A stretch of DNA of 37,955 nucleotides from Nitrospinota bacterium (GTDB taxonomy: Bacteria; UBA8248), in the NCBI GenBank assembly GCA_026706735.1, contig JAPOYD010000042.1:1-37955 (forward strand). The letters run 5' to 3'. Of the stretch, positions 1,803 to 23,254 are shown piece by piece. Position 1 is the stretch's first letter. Each line of letters starts with the position of its first letter. The translations under genes and the position numbers were made by a program. The notes under the pieces were generated by a model. That model made no database searches and had not been told where the DNA came from. It saw only the letters and a list, made by a program, of their open reading frames with translations.

Positions 1803-2813
1803 CTACGCCGTGCGCTTTTTCCCCACATAATCGAGCAGGACGGCCAGGATGATGATCGCCCCCACGGCCAGCAGTTGCCAGTCGGCGGCGATGCCCAGCA
1901 GGTTCAGGCCGTTTCGGATGCAGGCGATGATGAGCGTGCCGATGACGGTGCCGATGACGCGCCCCTCGCCGCCCAGCAGCGAGGCGCCGCCGATGACGAC
2001 CGCGGCGATCACGTCCATCAGGTCGAACATGCCCATGATGGCCTGGGCGGCCATGAGGCGCGAGGCCATCACCACGCCCGCGAGCGCGCCGCAGAAACCG
2101 CTGAAGACGAGCACGAACAGCTTGACGGCGAAGACGTTCACGCCGGCGACGCGGGCGGCCTCCTTGTTGCCGCCGACGGCGTAGATGTTCGTGCCCAGGA
2201 CGGTGCGCGAGAGGATGAGGTGCGCCACCAGGAAGACCAGGCCCATGATGACGGCGGCCATGGGAAACGGACCCAGGTAGCCCTGCCCGACGACGCTGAA
2301 CGCCTCGGGCAGGCCGAAGATGGACTGCTCGCCCGTCAGGATGAGCGCGCCGCCGCGCGCGAGGCTGTCCATCGCCAGCGTGAGGATGAAGGCGGGAATC
2401 GCGAACCAGCCCACGAAGACGCCGCTCACACCGCCCAGCACGACACCGAGGATCAGCGTGGCGATCACCGCAGGCACGATGGGCACGCCGTATTCCTTAA
2501 GCAGAAGCGCTACGACGACCGCGCCCATCGACTGGATGGAGGCCACCGAGAGGTCGATCTCGGCACAGATGATGACGAGCGTGAGACCCGCCGCCATGAT
2601 GCCGATGTTCGACGACTGGAGCAGGATGTTCATCATGTTCGAGACGGTGAAGAAGTTCTCCGCCGTGATGGAGAGAAAGACGATCAACAGGACGAGCGCG
2701 AGGTTGAGGCCGTACTTGGAAAAACCGGACGCGATGAGTGAGGAGATGCTGTACCCCCCGCTCGTCTCGGTGGCCGGGCCGCGCTCGCTATCCGTATTCA
2801 CCTCATTGCTCAT
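1803..2813 (-). CDS. Ribose/xylose-type ABC transporter permease
   Basis: This 336-residue, highly hydrophobic protein is the membrane subunit of a carbohydrate-uptake (CUT2) ABC importer, similar to RbsC/XylH. It shows about eight to ten membrane segments, the family loop GLTLVIICAEIDLSV near residues 75-90, and a glycine-rich stretch IGGASLLGGEGRVIGT near 275-290 that contacts the ATPase. A strong GGAGGAGGAG ribosome site precedes the ATG. It is the last gene of the operon, 27 bases after the ATPase gene. The sugar, or sugar-like, substrate cannot be read from the sequence. Confidence 0.92.
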   Translation of the reverse strand: MSNEVNTDSERGPATETSGGYSISSLIASGFSKYGLNLALVLLIVFLSITAENFFTVSNMMNILLQSSNIGIMAAGLTLVIICAEIDLSVASIQSMGAVVVALLLKEYGVPIVPAVIATLILGVVLGGVSGVFVGWFAIPAFILTLAMDSLARGGALILTGEQSIFGLPEAFSVVGQGYLGPFPMAAVIMGLVFLVAHLILSRTVLGTNIYAVGGNKEAARVAGVNVFAVKLFVLVFSGFCGALAGVVMASRLMAAQAIMGMFDLMDVIAAVVIGGASLLGGEGRVIGTVIGTLIIACIRNGLNLLGIAADWQLLAVGAIIILAVLLDYVGKKRTA

Positions 2814-2840
2814 CGCTCTCCTCCTCCGCAGACGCTCCTC

Positions 2841-4427
2841 TTACGCCGCCGTGCCCGTCGCGTAGCGCATGATGGTTTCCGCGTCGGCGTCTTCTCTTAA
2901 AACCTCGCCGGTGATGCGGCCCTCGTTCATCACGATGATCCGGTTGCAGATCGCCGTGACCTCGGGCAATTCCGAGGATATCACGATGATCGCCACCCCG
3001 AGCTGAGCGAGTTCCTCGAGGATGCGGTATATCTCCACCTTGGCGCCCGCGTCGACGCCCTTGGTCGGCTCGTCCAGAATGACGATTCTCGCGCCCGTGG
3101 ATATCCCCCGCGCGAGGAGCACCTTCTGCTGGTTCCCGCCGCTGAGCTGGGCGATCTGGTCCGTCAGGGAGGCGACCTTGATGCTCAGCCTTTGCACGTA
3201 ATCGCGCGAGAGGCTGCCCGCACCCGAACCGTTGATGTAGCCCAGAAGGCGCGTGAGCCTCCTGGAGCGGCTCTCCCTGCCGAAGTTGAACAGGGTGATC
3301 AGCAGGTTCTCCAGCACCGAGAGGAGCGGGAACACCCCCTGGTTCTTGCGGTCTTCGGTCAGAAAAGACAGCCCGTGGCGTATGGCGTCGCGGGGTTTCC
3401 TGATTCTCACCGGCTCGCCGTCGATGAACAACTCGCCGCCGTCCAGCCGATCGAGACCGAACAGCGCGCGGAACAATTCCGTCCTTCCCGCTCCCACCAG
3501 GCCTGCGAAGCCGAGTATCTCGCCCGCCTTCACCTTGAAGCTCACGTCTGCGAACACGCCCCCCGTCGTGAAATTCCTGACTTCGAGTACCTCCTCGCCC
3601 ACCTTCCCCGAAATTCTGGGGTAGCGCTCGCTGAAGGTGCGCCCCGTCATCATGCGGATCAGGGTGTCGACCTCGGTGTTCTCGGCATCAATTGTCCCGA
3701 CGTGCCGCCCGTCGCGCAGGACGGAGATGCGATCGCCGATCGCGAGGCAGTCCTCCAGCGTGTGGGAGACGTAGACGACCCCGATTCCGCGCTCCGTCAA
3801 GCGCTCGATGACCTCGAAGAGCGCTTCCTTCTCCCCGGGGCCCAGGGAAGAGGTGGGTTCGTCCATCAGGATGACTTTGGCATCGAAGGCCACCGCCTTG
3901 GCGATCTCGAGAAACTGCATATCCGATAAACTTAAGTTCAACACCTCGGCGTTCGGGTCGACCTCGATCCTAAGTTCGGTGAAAATCTCGCGGCAGCGCC
4001 GCTCCATCGCCGCCTCGTCGCGCACGCCCAGCCGCCCGAGCAGAGGGTTCGCGCTCCTCAAATCGCGGCCCAGGAAGAGATTGCTCTTCACGTCCATCAG
4101 CCGCACGAGGCTCAGTTCCTGATGGATCACGCTGATGCCGAGTTCGCGCGTGAGCGCGGGGGAGCACCTCTCGATTACTTCTCCTTCGAACTCCATTTCG
4201 CCGGTATCTTTTTCGACGACGCCCGAGATGATCTTGATCATGGTCGATTTGCCGGCCCCGTTCTCGCCCAGCAGTACGTGGACCTCGCCGGGCCGCACGC
4301 TGAAGTCCACCTCGTCGAGCGCCACGACGCCCGGAAACCGCTTGCCGATACCGCGCATGTCGAGAACGAGGCGCTCCGCCGCGCCGTCTGTGCGAGATTC
4401 GGGCGGATGGGAGGGGGATGACGTCAT
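2841..4427 (-). CDS. CUT2-type sugar ABC transporter ATP-binding protein
   Basis: This tandem two-domain ATPase of about 528 residues energises the importer and resembles RbsA/XylG/MglA. Domain 1 has Walker A GENGAGKST (54-62), Walker B VILMDEP (185-191) and the H-loop His222. Domain 2 has the degenerate P-loop GLVGAGRTE (309-317) that is usual in this family, signature LSGGNQQ (428-434) and Walker B VILDEP. I chose the ATG at 4427 (MTSSPS) because it gives the family's usual length of about 500 residues. A GTG at 4511 would add 28 residues reaching almost to the upstream stop at 4518, without similarity to the family. The ribosome site GGAAGA is modest, so the start is not certain. Confidence 0.92.
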   Translation of the reverse strand: MTSSPSHPPESRTDGAAERLVLDMRGIGKRFPGVVALDEVDFSVRPGEVHVLLGENGAGKSTMIKIISGVVEKDTGEMEFEGEVIERCSPALTRELGISVIHQELSLVRLMDVKSNLFLGRDLRSANPLLGRLGVRDEAAMERRCREIFTELRIEVDPNAEVLNLSLSDMQFLEIAKAVAFDAKVILMDEPTSSLGPGEKEALFEVIERLTERGIGVVYVSHTLEDCLAIGDRISVLRDGRHVGTIDAENTEVDTLIRMMTGRTFSERYPRISGKVGEEVLEVRNFTTGGVFADVSFKVKAGEILGFAGLVGAGRTELFRALFGLDRLDGGELFIDGEPVRIRKPRDAIRHGLSFLTEDRKNQGVFPLLSVLENLLITLFNFGRESRSRRLTRLLGYINGSGAGSLSRDYVQRLSIKVASLTDQIAQLSGGNQQKVLLARGISTGARIVILDEPTKGVDAGAKVEIYRILEELAQLGVAIIVISSELPEVTAICNRIIVMNEGRITGEVLREDADAETIMRYATGTAA

Positions 4428-16098: not shown

Positions 16099-17715
16099 CT
16101 ACTTCTGGTAAGCGTCCTCCCGGGTGCAATACGCGCAGTAGGGACGCGTGACCACATCCGCCCATTTCGCCGAATGCGTGTGGACGAAGGGCGTCTCGAA
16201 CAGCGGGATCACGGGCACGTCGGCCGCGACCATATCGACGATCTGACGCCACGCGGCGCCCCGCTTCTTCACGTCCACTATCTGCCATTCGGCGTCGAGG
16301 AGACGCTGGACGCCGACGTTGATGTAGGACGGCGCGTTGTTGAAGTTCGCCGAGCCGATGTTGTTCCTGTCGTAGACCCGCGTCACGCTGATCTTGGGGT
16401 CGGGCCCGGTGGTGAAGAACTGCATCATGATGTCGAAATCATGATTGATGTAGACCTTCTTCAGCGTCGCCGCCCGGTCGAAGGACTCGATCTTGATGTC
16501 GATGCCGACTTTCTTGAGCTGCTGCTTGATCACCTCGGCCGCCAATCCCTCGAAGCCGCGGCCCTTGGCCCAGGTCACCGTGAGGCTGAAGCGCTTGCCT
16601 CCCTTCATCGGGTAGCCCGCCTCGTCGAGCAGCCTGTTCGCCATCTTCAGGTCCTGCTTGTACTGGGCGAAGCTGCCCTTGTGCGCCCAACTCATGGCCG
16701 AGTGCATGATGCCGTCCGCCACTTTCGCGGTGCCCCCGGTAGCCAGCTGGCTGATCTGGTTCTTGTCCAGCGCATACGCGATCGCCTGGCGAACCTTCAC
16801 GTTGCCGGTGATGGGCCGCCGCATGTTCAGGAGCATGAACTCGACCTGCCCCGTCGCCTCTCCCCCCTTGTCGAGGACGACGAGTTTCGGGTTCTTCTTT
16901 AGGCGGGCGGCCTGATCCCAGGGGATGAGGGCCGCGCGGAGATAGTCGATCTCGCCTTTTTCGAGCGCGATGAGGCGCGTGTTGGCGTCCGAGACGAACC
17001 GGATGACCAGCTCATCCGCGTAGGGCTTGGGCGCGTTCCAGTAATTCGGGTTCCGCACGAGCCTGACGTGGCTTCCCTTCTTGTATTCCTTGAGCATGAA
17101 GGGCCCGGTGCCGACGGGTTTCTTGCTATACGGAGAGTTCAGGAACGCCTTGCGGCTGCCCACGTGATCCTTCCACAGATGCTTGGGGTAGATGGCGGGT
17201 CCGCCGAAGATCACCCCCATAACCGTGAGCAGGGGGGCGAAAGGCTTCTTGAGGCGGACGACGATGGTGTACTTGTCCGGCGCTTCCACCTTCTCCGCCA
17301 CCGGCTTCCAGAACACGCGCGAGCGCGGGTTGTACGGCAGGCACTTCTCCAGCGAGAACTTCACGTCCTCGCTCGTCATCTCCTTGCCGTCATGGAACTT
17401 CACGCCCTTGCGGAGGTGGAAGACGAGCGTCTTCCCGTTGTCCTTGACCTCCCAGGATTTCGCCAGCTCCGGCTTCGGGTTGAGAGCGAAATCGAGGGTG
17501 ATCAGCTTGTTGTAGATGTTCACAGCCGGCACCTGGACCGTCGTGCCCGGTTTGACGATCAGGTTGAAGTGCCCCGGATCGGCTTCCAGGCCGACGACCA
17601 GCGTGCCGCCCCGCTTCTGGGCCCATGCGGACCCCGGAGCCTGGCCGAATACAAGCACCGCCGCGAGGAGTAAGAAAATAGCGGCGCTTCCGAATCGGAT
17701 TTTCCGTCGTTCCAT
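16099..17715 (-). CDS. Extracellular solute-binding protein family 5 (peptide-type)
   Basis: This 538-residue protein has a signal peptide (MERRKIRF, hydrophobic core, then PGSAWAQ, cleavage near 32) and the SBP_bac_5 fold. Landmarks are RGGTLVVGLEADPGHFN at the mature N-terminus, LAKSWEV...LRKGVKFHDG and GTGPFMLKEYKKG. Such proteins bind di- or oligopeptides, nickel chelates, opines or other amide-type ligands. The ligand is not predictable. The ATG follows GGAGGG at 7 bases. Its 171-base upstream gap holds inverted repeats but no clear promoter, so it may be read from the selenoprotein promoter as well as from its own. Confidence 0.93.
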   Translation of the reverse strand: MERRKIRFGSAAIFLLLAAVLVFGQAPGSAWAQKRGGTLVVGLEADPGHFNLIVKPGTTVQVPAVNIYNKLITLDFALNPKPELAKSWEVKDNGKTLVFHLRKGVKFHDGKEMTSEDVKFSLEKCLPYNPRSRVFWKPVAEKVEAPDKYTIVVRLKKPFAPLLTVMGVIFGGPAIYPKHLWKDHVGSRKAFLNSPYSKKPVGTGPFMLKEYKKGSHVRLVRNPNYWNAPKPYADELVIRFVSDANTRLIALEKGEIDYLRAALIPWDQAARLKKNPKLVVLDKGGEATGQVEFMLLNMRRPITGNVKVRQAIAYALDKNQISQLATGGTAKVADGIMHSAMSWAHKGSFAQYKQDLKMANRLLDEAGYPMKGGKRFSLTVTWAKGRGFEGLAAEVIKQQLKKVGIDIKIESFDRAATLKKVYINHDFDIMMQFFTTGPDPKISVTRVYDRNNIGSANFNNAPSYINVGVQRLLDAEWQIVDVKKRGAAWRQIVDMVAADVPVIPLFETPFVHTHSAKWADVVTRPYCAYCTREDAYQK

Positions 17716-17885: not shown

Positions 17886-18941
17886 TCAGCCGGTGAAGGA
17901 AAAATCCATCTTGCGCGTGACGCTGTGCGTTGTTCCGAACGTCGGGATGACGAGGCTGTGCTTCCCGAGGCCTCCCGCGACGAACAGGCAGATGCTCTCC
18001 TCACCGTCGACGACGGGTACGCTTTCGAGGTCTTCCTGGGCCATGAGGTCGTCCCGGCGCCCCCGCGCGCGCTCCAGGTTCGCCGGCGCAAAAAGGAACG
18101 TCGGCACCCTGCCCCGCTCGTACAAGAAGGCCTTTATTCGCGGCGGATCCCAGCCGTCGCGCACGAGCATGTCGACGTGTTCGGGGCCGAGGACGACCAC
18201 CATCTCCCCGCCGAAGAGCGCGTTGTTGCTCCCCGCCTGCATCATCGACGAGGCGATGGACTGGAGCACGCCCTCGCCATCCGTGCTGGCCGCGTCGTTG
18301 ACCATGATGTGCGGGTCGATGGCGATGACCGTCACGGCGCTGTCGGAGCGCTCCAGGCCGCGCTCGACGTGGAGCGGCGGCCACGGGCTCGCTTCCTCAT
18401 TTTCGCCGATGCAGCTCGAGAACTTGCCCTGGTGGCCGAAGGTGCTGCGATCGGTATCGCCCGGCTTGGCGCCCCCGATGTTCTGCAGGATGAACCGGAA
18501 CGCCCTGCCGATGGTGGCGTTGGCCCGCCAGCCCTGGCCGAAGAGGTTCTCCTTGCAGTTGACTCCCAGCGCGCCGCGGGCGGGGCCGTGGACGACGATG
18601 AGCTGCGCGATGCAGTTCGTCGTCCCCTGAACGCCCGGCAGGTTGTATATGGGGTCGAAGATGGCGTCGACGGCGGTGACGAGAACGGGCATGTACTCGG
18701 GTCTGCAGCCCGCCATGGCGGCGTTTACGGCGATCTTCTCGATCGTGGCGTCGCCGAACAGATGGGGAATGCGGCCGCGGGACTCTTCGGGCGGCCGCCC
18801 CGATGCCTCCACCATGGCCGCCACCCGCTCTTCGGTCGGCGGGATGACGGGCAGCCCGTCGCCCCAGCCCCGTTCCATCACGTACTCGAGCAACTCCAGG
18901 GGGGATTCCGCCACCTCGTGGCGCACCGAGTCCAGCTTCAT
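17886..18941 (-). CDS. Conserved protein partner of the UGSC selenoprotein
   Basis: This 351-residue soluble protein has no signal peptide or membrane segment. I recognise it only as a conserved protein found beside UGSC-family genes. Its conserved-looking landmarks are ERGWGDGLPVIPPTEERV (23-40), a central NAAMAGCRPEYMPV, GTTNCIAQL, GVNCKENLFGQG, FGHQGKFSSCIGENEE and the C-terminal VAGGLGKHSLVIPTFG (321-336). Cysteines are at 79, 110, 129, 177 and 318, and several lie in the conserved-looking patches, which would suit a redox partner. The ATG overlaps the selenoprotein stop in ATGA, so the two are translationally coupled. I infer that they form one enzyme, but no reaction can be assigned. 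Confidence 0.8.
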   Translation of the reverse strand: MKLDSVRHEVAESPLELLEYVMERGWGDGLPVIPPTEERVAAMVEASGRPPEESRGRIPHLFGDATIEKIAVNAAMAGCRPEYMPVLVTAVDAIFDPIYNLPGVQGTTNCIAQLIVVHGPARGALGVNCKENLFGQGWRANATIGRAFRFILQNIGGAKPGDTDRSTFGHQGKFSSCIGENEEASPWPPLHVERGLERSDSAVTVIAIDPHIMVNDAASTDGEGVLQSIASSMMQAGSNNALFGGEMVVVLGPEHVDMLVRDGWDPPRIKAFLYERGRVPTFLFAPANLERARGRRDDLMAQEDLESVPVVDGEESICLFVAGGLGKHSLVIPTFGTTHSVTRKMDFSFTG

Positions 18942-19492
18942 CCTTCGTCTTCCGGGGGTGTATACGTGAGGGACTCCGCCACGCTCTCAAAAATCTCGTC
19001 CGCGTGGGTATGCACCGTATCGAGCGGTATTCCGGTGATGGGATGGGGGATCGAGACGATCGGCAGGCCCGCAAAGCCCAGGGCCCGCGCCTTCTTGCGG
19101 CCGAAGGCCTCGAACATATCCGTGATGATGGTGAGCGTGGGGAGGCCGCGCTGCTCCAGCTCGATCGCGTCGTGGATACTCCACGGCGTGCAGGACCCTC
19201 AGTCGGGCACCGCGTTCACCACGAAGTCGCACTCAGCGGCCATCCGATCGATCAGGTCCTCCTCCAGGGGGAGCGCGCTGCCTCCCTTGCGGTAGTGCGT
19301 GAACGAGCCGATGGGATATTTCCCGCTCAAGCGCTCCTCCAGCCGGCGGAGCAGCTTGTCGGAGTTTGGTTTCGTGTTGTCGAGAAGGCCCAGGCGAACC
19401 CCCTCGTGGGAGGCGGGGCGCGCGGCAGGGCGCACCTTCTCCAGCGGCGGGGGTATTCCAGATGGATCGAGAATCACCAGAGTCTTCGCCAT
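18938..19492 (-). CDS. UGSC-family selenoprotein, TGA at codon 98 read as selenocysteine
   Basis: The frame opens at ATG 19492 after GGGGAGGAG (MAKTLVILDPSG) and meets TGA at 19201-19199. Read through as Sec, it continues Sec98-G-S-C-T-P-W-S-I-H-D-A and on through LTIITDMFEAFGRKKA and SIPHPITGIPLDTVH to a real TGA at 18940-18938, 184 residues in all. The motif U-G-S-C at the end of a beta strand (VVNAVPD) gives the UGSC (seleno)protein family its name, and many relatives carry Cys at this place. The post-TGA part keeps frame, composition and a sensible length, and ends in ATGA overlap with the next gene, so it is not a decayed pseudogene. A SECIS-like hairpin lies just downstream of the TGA. 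The family is thiol/selenol-redox-like, with no settled reaction. Automatic calling would truncate this gene to 97 residues or miss it. Confidence 0.9.
19171..19201 (-). promoter_or_regulatory. Bacterial SECIS element with its UGA codon
   Basis: Thirteen bases after the UGA (19201-19199) the mRNA forms CGUGG-AGUAU-CCACG, a 5-bp perfect stem (19185-19181 with 19175-19171) and a 5-base loop. Counting the U of UGA as 1, the loop G and U are bases 23 and 24, the same places as the SelB-contacting G23 and U24 of the E. coli fdhF SECIS. Further weak pairing below the stem is possible after one mismatch. Confidence 0.8.
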
Positions 19493-19706: not shown

Positions 19707-21452
19707 CTACTTCGGCGGAATGACCGGCAGGAGCACGTGGGAGGGATGGTCGGGACCGGTGTGGACCGTCACCTCGCCGCCGAACACCTCGGGCGGCCTG
19801 TCAGCCGGGTCGTTGTGCCGGAACGGCCCCACGCCCGAGAACACGGCGGGCATGTTGGGAAGCCCCTGTGTCACGCCGCCCGGATAGACGTAGTCGCACC
19901 CCCGGATGCTCAAGGCGATGCGGTAGCCCCTGGGAACAACGATGCAGGTCGGCCAGATCTCCACGTCCAGTTCGTATATCTCGCCCGGCGTCAGGTGCTG
20001 CGCCTCGTCGTGCGCGTGGTAGGGCCGGTAGGGCAGCGTAAGATTTTCATCCAGCTTCCGGTGCGAAGCCCTGAGCCAGCCCTGGGCCACCGGGGTGTGC
20101 GGGTCGAGCGCGCCCTGGAAGGTGACTTCCCTGAAATCGGGCGTGAAAACCCGAAGGACGAGGAACAGATCGGCGTCTCGGGTCTCGGAAGACACCCACA
20201 GCTTCGACGCCAGGGGACCTGTGACCTCGGTTTCGCGCTTCAGGGGAGGCGAGACGAACGTCACCCCGTCGCTCAAGCCCGCGTAGGCGGCCGTACCCGC
20301 TTCTTCCGGCGCGGACTCTCCGAGCAGGTGGCCTTCCGGATGGAGATAGAGCTTCGTCCAGTTCGTGCGCGCGATGGGCCACTCGTTCTCCGCGCGCTCC
20401 ACGAACTTCTCCCCGGGGTGGCGCACCTGGAGCAGGACTCTCGGCTGATCCTTCCAGCCCGTGTCCTCGCCTTTCAGGTAATGGCCAAAGAATTTCTTCT
20501 GGAGCGCGACGCCGTAATCGGTATAAAACTCCGTCCAGTGCTCGATACCGTGGCTTTCAAGCCATTTCTCTTTTGAGGCCGCGCGCATGAAGGCCTCGCA
20601 GTTGCCCCTCGGGTGAAGACCCTGCCCGCCCCAGTTGTTCGAAGAGAGAAAGGGAACCTCGACCTTCGACCAGTCGGGCGTTTTCGCCTTCCAGTATTCA
20701 TCATCGAGCGGATGCGCGCGCATCTCCGCCCCCAGAGGGCAGCGGTTCGCGCCCAGTTCCTCATCGCTCAGCGTATCCGGCCCCGATACCCAATCGCCCG
20801 TCACCCGGCTCTTGTAGCCGCGCTCGCCGAGGCCGTGCTGTTTGGAGCGTCCCCTGTTCTGATACCAGTTCTCCGTGAACGTGCAGTAGATGCCCCCGTG
20901 GTAGTTCATGTCGCGGTAGAAGTCCGCCGCCCCCTCCCAGGCGCACATGGCGACGAGATGAGGCGGCTTCAGGCAAGCGACCTGCCACTGGTTGATGGCG
21001 TAATAAGAGATGCCGTTCGCCCCCACCTTCCCGTTGCTCCAGGGCTGGGCGCCCGCCCATTCGATGCACTCGTAGAAATCCCTTGTCTCGCGATCCGAGA
21101 ATGGGTCCATATACCCCGGCGAGCGGCCCGCGCCCCGCGAGTCCACCCGAACGCAGGCGTAGCCGTCGGGCACCCATTTCTCGGGGTCCACCACCTCCCA
21201 GTTCTGGTATTTGTTCGAAGAACCTGCGGCGACGTCGGGGTGTTGCTCCACCATTCGCCGCCATTGCTCGGGATAGCCGTCCTCGAAGTGGAGCCACTTC
21301 CCGTAAATCCCGTAGGTGATGATCACGGGATAGCGGCCCTCCTCGACGGGACGGTAGACGTCGCAGCGCAGCACGAGGCCGTCGTCCATCTCGACCGGCA
21401 CCTCCCAGTCGATCCGCATGCCGTCGGCTATTTCCGATTTACGCCCTCTCAT
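19707..21452 (-). CDS. CocE/NonD (peptidase S15) family hydrolase, copy B
   Basis: This 581-residue protein has an S15-type alpha/beta-hydrolase domain (about 15-340) followed by the jelly-roll X-Pro dipeptidyl-peptidase C-terminal domain (about 350-575). The N-terminal motifs are VLRCDVYRP, CVRVDSRGAGRSPG (oxyanion side) and the nucleophile elbow NGISYY with Ser149. The usual acid motif of the family (GW.D) appears as SSNNWGGQGLHPRG, so the catalytic Asp is not obvious. The His is probably in GIEHWTEFY. Family members hydrolyse acyl, ester or amide bonds (cocaine esterase, glutaryl acylases). There is no signal peptide. It follows its close paralogue by 27 bases, with ribosome site GAGAGG, and is the second gene of that operon. 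Confidence 0.9.
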   Translation of the reverse strand: MRGRKSEIADGMRIDWEVPVEMDDGLVLRCDVYRPVEEGRYPVIITYGIYGKWLHFEDGYPEQWRRMVEQHPDVAAGSSNKYQNWEVVDPEKWVPDGYACVRVDSRGAGRSPGYMDPFSDRETRDFYECIEWAGAQPWSNGKVGANGISYYAINQWQVACLKPPHLVAMCAWEGAADFYRDMNYHGGIYCTFTENWYQNRGRSKQHGLGERGYKSRVTGDWVSGPDTLSDEELGANRCPLGAEMRAHPLDDEYWKAKTPDWSKVEVPFLSSNNWGGQGLHPRGNCEAFMRAASKEKWLESHGIEHWTEFYTDYGVALQKKFFGHYLKGEDTGWKDQPRVLLQVRHPGEKFVERAENEWPIARTNWTKLYLHPEGHLLGESAPEEAGTAAYAGLSDGVTFVSPPLKRETEVTGPLASKLWVSSETRDADLFLVLRVFTPDFREVTFQGALDPHTPVAQGWLRASHRKLDENLTLPYRPYHAHDEAQHLTPGEIYELDVEIWPTCIVVPRGYRIALSIRGCDYVYPGGVTQGLPNMPAVFSGVGPFRHNDPADRPPEVFGGEVTVHTGPDHPSHVLLPVIPPK

Positions 21453-21479: not shown

Positions 21480-23228
21480 TCATCCTTTCGGCGGAATCAC
21501 CGGTAGCAAAACGTGGGACGGATGCGCCGGGCCGGTGTGGAGCGTCACCTTTCCGCCGAAGAGATCCGTCGGCCTGTCCTCTTTCAAATCGTGCTTGAAG
21601 GGCCCCACGCCGTAGTAGACGCGGCCCGATATTTTGGGCGCGGAAGGCTCGTAGCCGGGCCAGACGTAGTCGCGCCCCCGGACGCTCAAGGCCAGACGGT
21701 ATTCTTTGGGGATCACGATGGAGGTCGGCCATATCTCCACATCCAACTCGTATATCTCGCCCGGCGTCAAGGGCTGAATCTCATCATGCGTGTGGTAGGG
21801 CCGGTAGGGCAGCGTGAGCGATTCATCGAGCTTTCGGTGCGATGCCCTCAACCAGCCGATGGCGACGGGCGTGTGCGGATCGTTCGCGCCCCGGTAGACG
21901 ATCTCCGTCATATCCGGCGTGAAGACGCGTAAGGTCAGGAAGATATCCGCATCCTCGGTGTCCGACGATACGAACAGCTTGGCCGCCACGGGGCCGGTGA
22001 TCTCGGTTTCCTCGGCGAAGGGCGGCGAGATGTAGATCAAGCCGTCGCCCAGGGCGTCATAGGTCTTCGTCCGCTCGTTCGTCTGAGGTTCCGCCCTGAA
22101 GGCGCCCGAGCCCGAATGGAGGTAATACTTCGTCCACTGGGTGCGCGCGATGGGCCACTCGCCCTCCGCGCGCGGCACGAACTTCTCGCCCGGATGCCGC
22201 ACCAGGAGCCGGACTCTCGGCTGCTCCGCCCAGCCGGTGTCCTCGCCTTTCAGGAAATGGCCGAAGAATTTCTTCTGGAGCGCGACGCCGTAATCGGTGT
22301 AAAACTCCGTGAAATGCTCCAGCCCGTGCATCTCCAGCCATTTCTGGTCGGTGGCCGATTGCACGAAGCCCTCCGTGTTGCCTCTGGGGTGCAGGCCCAC
22401 GCCGCCCCAGTTGCCCGCCGATAAGAGCGGCACGTTGATTTTGGAGTAATCGGGCATGCGCTCTTTCCAGTAATCATCGATCAGGGGGTGATCCAGAATA
22501 TCCTTCCCGAAATCGCTCCTGTTGGAAGCGAGTTCTTCTTCGCTCAGGTTGGCGGGCCCGGATATCCAGTCGCCGTTGATGCGGCTCTTGATGCCGCGGT
22601 GGCCCTTGCCGTGCTGGCGGGGCACGACGGCCTGGCTGTACCAGGTCTCCGAGAAGCGGCAGGCGATGCCGCCGTGGTGGGCGAGGTCGCGGTAGAAATC
22701 CGCCGCCCCCTCCCAGACGCACATGGCGGCCAGGTGCGGCGGCTGGAGGGAGGCCACCTGCCACTGGTTCATCCCGTAATAGGAGATGCCGTTCAGCCCC
22801 ACCTTCCCGTTGCTCCAGGGCTGTACGCCCGCCCACTCGATGCAGTCGTAAAAATCTTTGGTCTCGCGCGGGGACCAGACTTCCAGATAGCCCGGCGAGC
22901 GGCCCGCGCCGCGCGAATCCACGCGCACGCAGGCGTAGCCGTCGGGCACCCATTTCTCGGGGTCCACGAGCTCCCAGTTCTGGTATTTGTTGGTGGTGCC
23001 CATGACGGTTTCGGGATAATCGTTCACCATGAGGCTCCACTGGTGGGGATAGCCGTCCTGCAAGTGAAGCCATTTGCAGTAGGGGCCGTAGCTCATGATG
23101 ACGGGGTATTGCCCATCGTCGTCAGGCCGGTAGACGTCGCAGCGCAGCACGACGCCGTCGTCCATCTCGATGGGCACGTCCCAGTCGATCCGCATCCCGT
23201 CTCTTACCTCGCTCTTGTACTCGCTCAT
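21480..23228 (-). CDS. CocE/NonD (peptidase S15) family hydrolase, copy A
   Basis: This 582-residue protein is a tandem paralogue of the gene downstream and aligns over its full length without large gaps. Long shared blocks include the first 30 residues, KYQNWE.VDPEKWVPDGYAC and the nucleophile region GKVG.NGISYY (Ser149). The acid motif is again changed (AGNWGGVGLHPRG), so the feature belongs to the subfamily and is not a defect of one copy. The ATG at 23228 is preferred over 23243 because it has GAAAGGCGAG before it and matches the paralogue's start. The pair may have split substrate range after duplication. Its neighbours in the same direction are the selenoprotein and peptide-transport genes. 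Confidence 0.9.
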   Translation of the reverse strand: MSEYKSEVRDGMRIDWDVPIEMDDGVVLRCDVYRPDDDGQYPVIMSYGPYCKWLHLQDGYPHQWSLMVNDYPETVMGTTNKYQNWELVDPEKWVPDGYACVRVDSRGAGRSPGYLEVWSPRETKDFYDCIEWAGVQPWSNGKVGLNGISYYGMNQWQVASLQPPHLAAMCVWEGAADFYRDLAHHGGIACRFSETWYSQAVVPRQHGKGHRGIKSRINGDWISGPANLSEEELASNRSDFGKDILDHPLIDDYWKERMPDYSKINVPLLSAGNWGGVGLHPRGNTEGFVQSATDQKWLEMHGLEHFTEFYTDYGVALQKKFFGHFLKGEDTGWAEQPRVRLLVRHPGEKFVPRAEGEWPIARTQWTKYYLHSGSGAFRAEPQTNERTKTYDALGDGLIYISPPFAEETEITGPVAAKLFVSSDTEDADIFLTLRVFTPDMTEIVYRGANDPHTPVAIGWLRASHRKLDESLTLPYRPYHTHDEIQPLTPGEIYELDVEIWPTSIVIPKEYRLALSVRGRDYVWPGYEPSAPKISGRVYYGVGPFKHDLKEDRPTDLFGGKVTLHTGPAHPSHVLLPVIPPKG

Positions 23229-23254
23229 CTCTCGCCTTTCCATGAAAAAAGTGG

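Follow-up and report, generated by a model that had tools for sequence, protein, structure and literature searches.

The reverse strand of a 37,955-nucleotide contig of a marine Nitrospinota bacterium (JAPOYD010000042.1, assembly GCA_026706735.1; hereafter the window, meaning the whole stretch) carries a gene whose open frame is interrupted by a single TGA. By sequence comparison, this gene is a full-length member of the known UGSC family (PF24696, NF041046), and it almost certainly encodes a true selenoprotein in which UGA is recoded as selenocysteine (Sec). The frame, the family, a covarying selenocysteine insertion sequence (SECIS), and the Sec machinery of the genome together lead to this conclusion. 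We further infer, in part, that the protein belongs to a two-part, GrdB/PrdB-like selenoenzyme encoded in catabolic gene clusters, a reading that we consider moderately likely as a whole.

The UGSC Gene and Its In-Frame TGA

The gene starts with an ATG at 19492, immediately preceded by the purine-rich GGGGAGGAG, and its codon 98 is the TGA at 19201-19199. On the minus strand it reads ATG (19492) ... GTG CCC GAC TGA GGG TCC TGC ACG CCG TGG AGT ATC CAC GAC ... GAC GAA GGA TGA. Eighty-six open codons, of which the first encode GSCTPW, lie 3' of the internal TGA, and the terminal TGA at 18940-18938 overlaps the ATG of the next gene (18941) as ATGA. With the internal TGA read as Sec, the product has 184 residues with Sec at position 98, in the motif U98-G99-S100-C101, and the column of position 98 is always Sec or Cys in 30 UGSC members. 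The protein matches the Pfam UGSC model with 175.5 bits (cut-off, 25) over model positions 2-171 of 172, and the NCBIfam UGSC_fam model with 149 bits (cut-off, 125). An earlier reading of the sequence (the original prediction) had given the coordinates, the 86-codon frame, its GSCTPW start, and the ATGA overlap exactly, and its family assignment is borne out by both model searches. It had also called the gene hidden. A Sec-unaware gene caller would indeed truncate the protein, but curated models of the family exist, and a UGSC-containing protein was already published in 2008, in the Global Ocean Sampling survey (PMC2398784). The window gene is a clean new member of this family: it shares the full-length match over curated cut-offs, the U/CGSC motif, and the downstream SECIS, and shows no family-level difference, its own genome holding eight copies.

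Homologues place the same codon in the same frame. Each of the eight UGSC genes in the genome carries exactly one TGA, as do all 53 UGSC matches in seven genomes of the genus. The family is present in 18 of 18 genomes of the phylum, where 89 of 90 matches carry one TGA; the sole match that lacks it is a fragment starting downstream of Sec. Two actinobacterial homologues have Cys (TGC) at the Sec position. Differences between close orthologues 3' of the TGA fall mostly at third codon positions, with counts at positions 1/2/3 of 2/0/13 for the ortholog L057 and 8/2/25 for L083. The comparison at codon 98 that the original prediction had proposed therefore yields Sec or Cys in the homologues, without divergence after the TGA. 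The closest external relatives of the window protein are found in metagenome-assembled genomes labelled Nitrospinota or Nitrospinae.

The genome itself (3.8 Mb, 94% complete) contains a complete bacterial Sec pathway, and each of the four genes that had been proposed as a check was found: selC, a tRNA-Sec with anticodon TCA (75.8 bits), together with SelA (578 bits), SelB (383 bits), and SelD (334 bits). The selA and selB genes lie near each other on one contig. The selD gene (L018, G000:C112, about 1510-1545) is itself a selenoprotein gene, with an in-frame TGA in the context AGGUGSKLG.

The SECIS Hairpin

With the U of UGA numbered 1, the RNA downstream of codon 98 folds into a stem of positions 17-21 and 27-31 that encloses the loop AGUAU (22-26), including G23 and U24. 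The loop and these two nucleotides sit where the original prediction had put them. The window has 1071 TGA triplets when both strands are counted, and codon 98 alone combines a 5-bp hairpin at 17-31 and G23-U24 with long open frames to either side. Across 42 distinct homologous Sec sequences, the five pairs from 17-31 to 21-27 are all standard and G23 and U24 are invariant (42/42), a degree of conservation well beyond chance. In 31 distinct sequences, 155 of 155 stem cells are paired, with double (compensatory) changes at pairs 18-30 (GC to AU) and 21-27 (CG to GC, 14/31). Shuffled controls reproduced the pairing in 0 of 500 cases and slid controls were 12-65% paired. Because the sequences are related to one another, the shuffle result should not be read as a probability, but the evidence from slid controls and from codons concurs.

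Codon choice tracks the hairpin. Valine is encoded by GTC after a codon pair beginning with TGG and by GTG after a pair beginning with TGC. Where the loop codon encodes Ser, it is AGT in 29 of 29 sequences, and AGT makes up 3% of the Ser codons among the window genes; the two Cys-form homologues have CTG and AGC at the corresponding codons. The Escherichia coli fdhF SECIS carries G23-U24 in its apical loop. The window hairpin lies equally far from the UGA and presents the same two nucleotides in its apical loop, whereas its stem is shorter, its sequence differs, and it has no clear bulged U17, position 17 being C, or U in a few sequences. A search of the region against Rfam gave no SECIS match. 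A published model of the bacterial SECIS specifies an apical loop of 3-9 nt, a stem of at least 4 bp, and a G within the first two loop positions (PMC13188914), and the window hairpin agrees with it: the stem has 5 bp, the loop has 5 nt with G as its second nucleotide, and the pairs covary. On this comparative evidence, the hairpin is a covarying SECIS.

A standard-code gene call does end just before the TGA, but the reading of this codon as a real stop or a sequencing error, in a decaying gene or one with a 97-residue product, is extremely improbable and, on comparative grounds, already refuted by the recurrence of this TGA in each of the seven paralogs and in separately assembled orthologues, the third-position bias 3' of it, the covarying SECIS, and the Sec machinery.

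Probable Relationship to GrdB and PrdB

Profile comparisons suggest that UGSC is homologous to GrdB/PrdB, the selenoproteins of the amino-acid-degrading glycine and D-proline reductases; we regard this homology as probable. Over the Sec region, the GrdB model TIGR01917 is matched by 22 of 30 UGSC members (best E = 6.1e-6), which are interrelated and so not independent, and the PrdB model TIGR04483 by 11 of 30 (best E = 7.7e-4). In hhalign, UGSC scores 32.9 against GrdB/PrdB, as compared to at most 17.5 in 30 column-shuffled controls; the alignment pairs Sec with Sec and a downstream HP motif with HP(F)G. The two families (PF07355, TIGR01917, and TIGR04483 for GrdB/PrdB) are thus alike in the Sec segment, in the pattern of the next helix and strand, and in an HP(F)G-like motif, and each goes with a second protein: GrdB and PrdB work with a second subunit, and UGSC has a recurrent partner. 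In contrast, UGSC is about 180 residues long, lacks the N-terminal part of GrdB, and scores far under the membership cut-offs. For the window protein, TIGR01917 gives 11.1 bits against a curated cut-off of 602.2, and, because the homology is remote, the protein is not filed as GrdB or PrdB. A search of the PDB with a full-length GrdB-like sequence returned no relative, only antibody light chains. Matches of a few UGSC members to class I fumarase look like chance.

The genome also holds four GrdB-type genes, each followed by an in-frame TGA at the GrdB Sec position (Table 1); judged by sequence, they probably encode additional selenoproteins, of which three would be short GrdB-like forms. A GrdE gene adjoins one of the four.

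A Recurrent Partner Protein

The gene that overlaps the UGSC stop codon encodes a protein that recurs with UGSC. In its own genome, it adjoins UGSC in six loci. At a further locus (L043, G000:C79), a Sec-UGSC and the partner are fused in frame, with a second partner copy behind. At the eighth (C186), three tandem partner copies lie upstream, with about 2.7 kb between their end and UGSC. A partner copy is therefore beside, near, or fused to 8 of 8 UGSC genes, though its side relative to UGSC varies between loci. A long reverse-strand frame lies between the tandem copies and UGSC at the C186 locus. The association extends to other lineages: genomes labelled Chloroflexi and Proteobacteria have fusions of the partner to Sec-UGSC (L030-L032), and Actinomycetes have a Cys-UGSC to which the partner is fused at one locus (L033) and adjacent at another (L034). 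The 2008 report describes a fusion of UGSC to a domain named 'Unknown_1' (PMC2398784), which may or may not correspond to the partner. These data make it very probable that UGSC and the partner form a functional unit, and because they are adjacent, near, or naturally fused, they may be regarded as one two-part enzyme. The natural fusions permit expression as a single chain.

Pfam and NCBIfam searches of 33 partner proteins (the window protein and 32 relatives) assigned the partner to no family; cut-offs were exceeded only by the UGSC domains of fusions. The 33 sequences share 18 invariant columns, including Cys79, which directly precedes a helix in the predicted partner model (predicted template modeling score, pTM, 0.84). 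Foldseek comparison of this model with solved structures gave no reliable match (none at E ≤ 0.001), and PDB sequence searches with the partner and UGSC profiles gave only noise.

Proposed Function and Alternatives

Chemistry of the GrdB/PrdB type, proposed from remote homology and context, is the best available mechanism, although we hold it only tentatively. UGA would be translated as Sec through the SECIS hairpin directly after the codon, and UGSC would be the counterpart of the Sec-bearing C-terminal part of GrdB/PrdB. A substrate that the partner holds, or that the two proteins share, would be attacked by the selenolate of Sec98; Cys101 or Cys79 of the partner would then resolve the selenium adduct as a selenenylsulfide, which a thiol system would re-reduce. 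Overall, a small catabolic substrate would have a C-N or other C-X bond cleaved reductively, with different paralogs serving different substrates. More speculatively still, UGSC and the partner, which would then be a non-pyruvoyl protein, could form a compact selenoenzyme of two parts that makes up its own branch within the glycine/proline reductase superfamily and has multiplied in marine bacteria to break the C-N/C-X bonds of several substrates.

Several observations weigh against this chemistry, in addition to the relatedness of the GrdB-matching members. The similarity between UGSC and GrdB spans about 80 residues and stays below curated cut-offs. Of the pyruvoyl-bearing subunits GrdE and PrdA, GrdE (PF09338) was compared with the partner by profile, and no similarity was detected (hhalign P 0.41), which sets the UGSC pair apart from GrdB/PrdB. 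The identification of the partner as a GrdE-like pyruvoyl protein is accordingly not supported, and a GrdB/PrdB-like activation step would be hypothetical. One paralog (L042, G000:C53) has the motif UGSS, its resolving Cys replaced by Ser and its Sec kept, and Cys101 is therefore not strictly required. Neighbouring genes also vary between paralogs, which makes the substrate assignment weak.

Alternatively, the UGSC-partner pair could be a selenol-dependent lyase, hydratase, or isomerase that acts without net reduction, with the partner, as a remote fumarase-I- or cyclic-amide-hydrolase-like enzyme, forming most of the active site. Foldseek matches the partner model best to class I fumarase and to cyclic amide hydrolases (lowest E = 3.1e-3), and CoA-dependent enzymes occur among the neighbours. 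However, these matches have template modeling scores (TM-scores) of about 0.2, and hhalign of the partner against fumarase PF05681 gives 19.0, within the noise set by shuffled controls of up to 19.9. We consider this alternative unlikely, and a class I fumarase relationship of the partner was dropped.

Less likely again is that UGSC is a thioredoxin-like thiol/selenol oxidoreductase that serves in redox repair or in defence against peroxide, the partner being either its client or its reductase. This suggestion dates from 2008, when a thioredoxin-like fold was proposed (PMC2398784). The model of the natural fusion L030 (pTM 0.86) instead predicts an alternating beta-alpha UGSC domain in which a strand (87-93) is followed by a helix (96-111) that begins around Sec. 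Foldseek matched this model to generic folds of the Rossmann and periplasmic-binding-protein types, none at E ≤ 0.001, and no thioredoxin is among the best 50 matches for this predicted structure. Sequence profiles favour GrdB/PrdB, and that alignment argues against the thioredoxin-fold guess. The gene clusters, moreover, contain CoA transferase III, enoyl-CoA hydratase, acyl-CoA dehydrogenase, and transporters, not stress genes.

The original prediction had described the biochemical role of UGSC proteins as not settled, and a 2026 review agrees (PMC13188914). The eight paralogs, the conserved partner, and the GrdB/PrdB tie go beyond its content. UGSC proteins are abundant in aquatic metagenomes and have had no known role since 2008; the remote GrdB/PrdB tie, and a conserved partner that has no database model yet carries an invariant Cys, now offer a framework for testing their function. 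A lineage whose genomes encode up to eight UGSC selenoproteins each would use selenium heavily.

Gene Neighbourhoods

Judged from gene content, the UGSC gene clusters are catabolic. In the window, the UGSC gene is accompanied by genes for an SBP_bac_5 protein, permeases and ATPases (named from their sequences, without a family search), an M20 peptidase, an amidase, and two CocE/NonD hydrolases. The SBP_bac_5 protein reaches no NCBIfam equivalog cut-off; it may have a role in the UGSC pathway. Because the window copy stands beside a peptide-type ATP-binding cassette (ABC) transporter and several hydrolase genes, its substrate is most likely peptide- or amino-acid-derived. Genes near the paralogs encode, among other products, CoA-transferase family III (two loci), enoyl-CoA hydratase (two loci), acyl-CoA dehydrogenase, FAA hydrolase, luciferase-like oxidoreductases, and a flavin adenine dinucleotide-dependent oxidoreductase; other paralog neighbours were recognised from their first residues only.

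Table 1. Positions of the features discussed (window coordinates unless a locus is named)
Feature	Position	Strand	Remarks
UGSC family selenoprotein gene	18938..19492	(-)	184 residues, Sec at residue 98 (motif U98-G-S-C101); Pfam and NCBIfam scores in text
TGA codon read as Sec	19199..19201	(-)	The 7 other UGSC genes of the genome, and orthologues, have TGA in this column; two actinobacterial homologues have Cys (TGC)
Bacterial SECIS upper hairpin	19171..19185	(-)	5-bp stem CGUGG/CCACG, loop AGUAU with G23-U24; covariation
Partner gene, 351 residues	17886..18941	(-)	Overlaps UGSC stop (ATGA); no Pfam/NCBIfam model; invariant Cys79 at predicted helix start
SBP_bac_5 dipeptide/oligopeptide/nickel-type ABC substrate-binding protein	16099..17715	(-)	Next gene, same direction; Pfam 321.6 bits
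Tandem partner copies, L119 (G000:C186)	3-971, 1016-2032, 2038-3087		Upstream of UGSC gene
GrdB-type genes	L085 (G000:C106), L086 (C17), L087 (C95), L088 (C94)		UGTGT, UPLC, UPLC, and UGLC, respectively

The two CocE/NonD hydrolase genes (Peptidase_S15 and PepX_C domains) lie in tandem upstream of the UGSC gene, at 19707-21452 and 21480-23243 (-), and are apparently a duplication.
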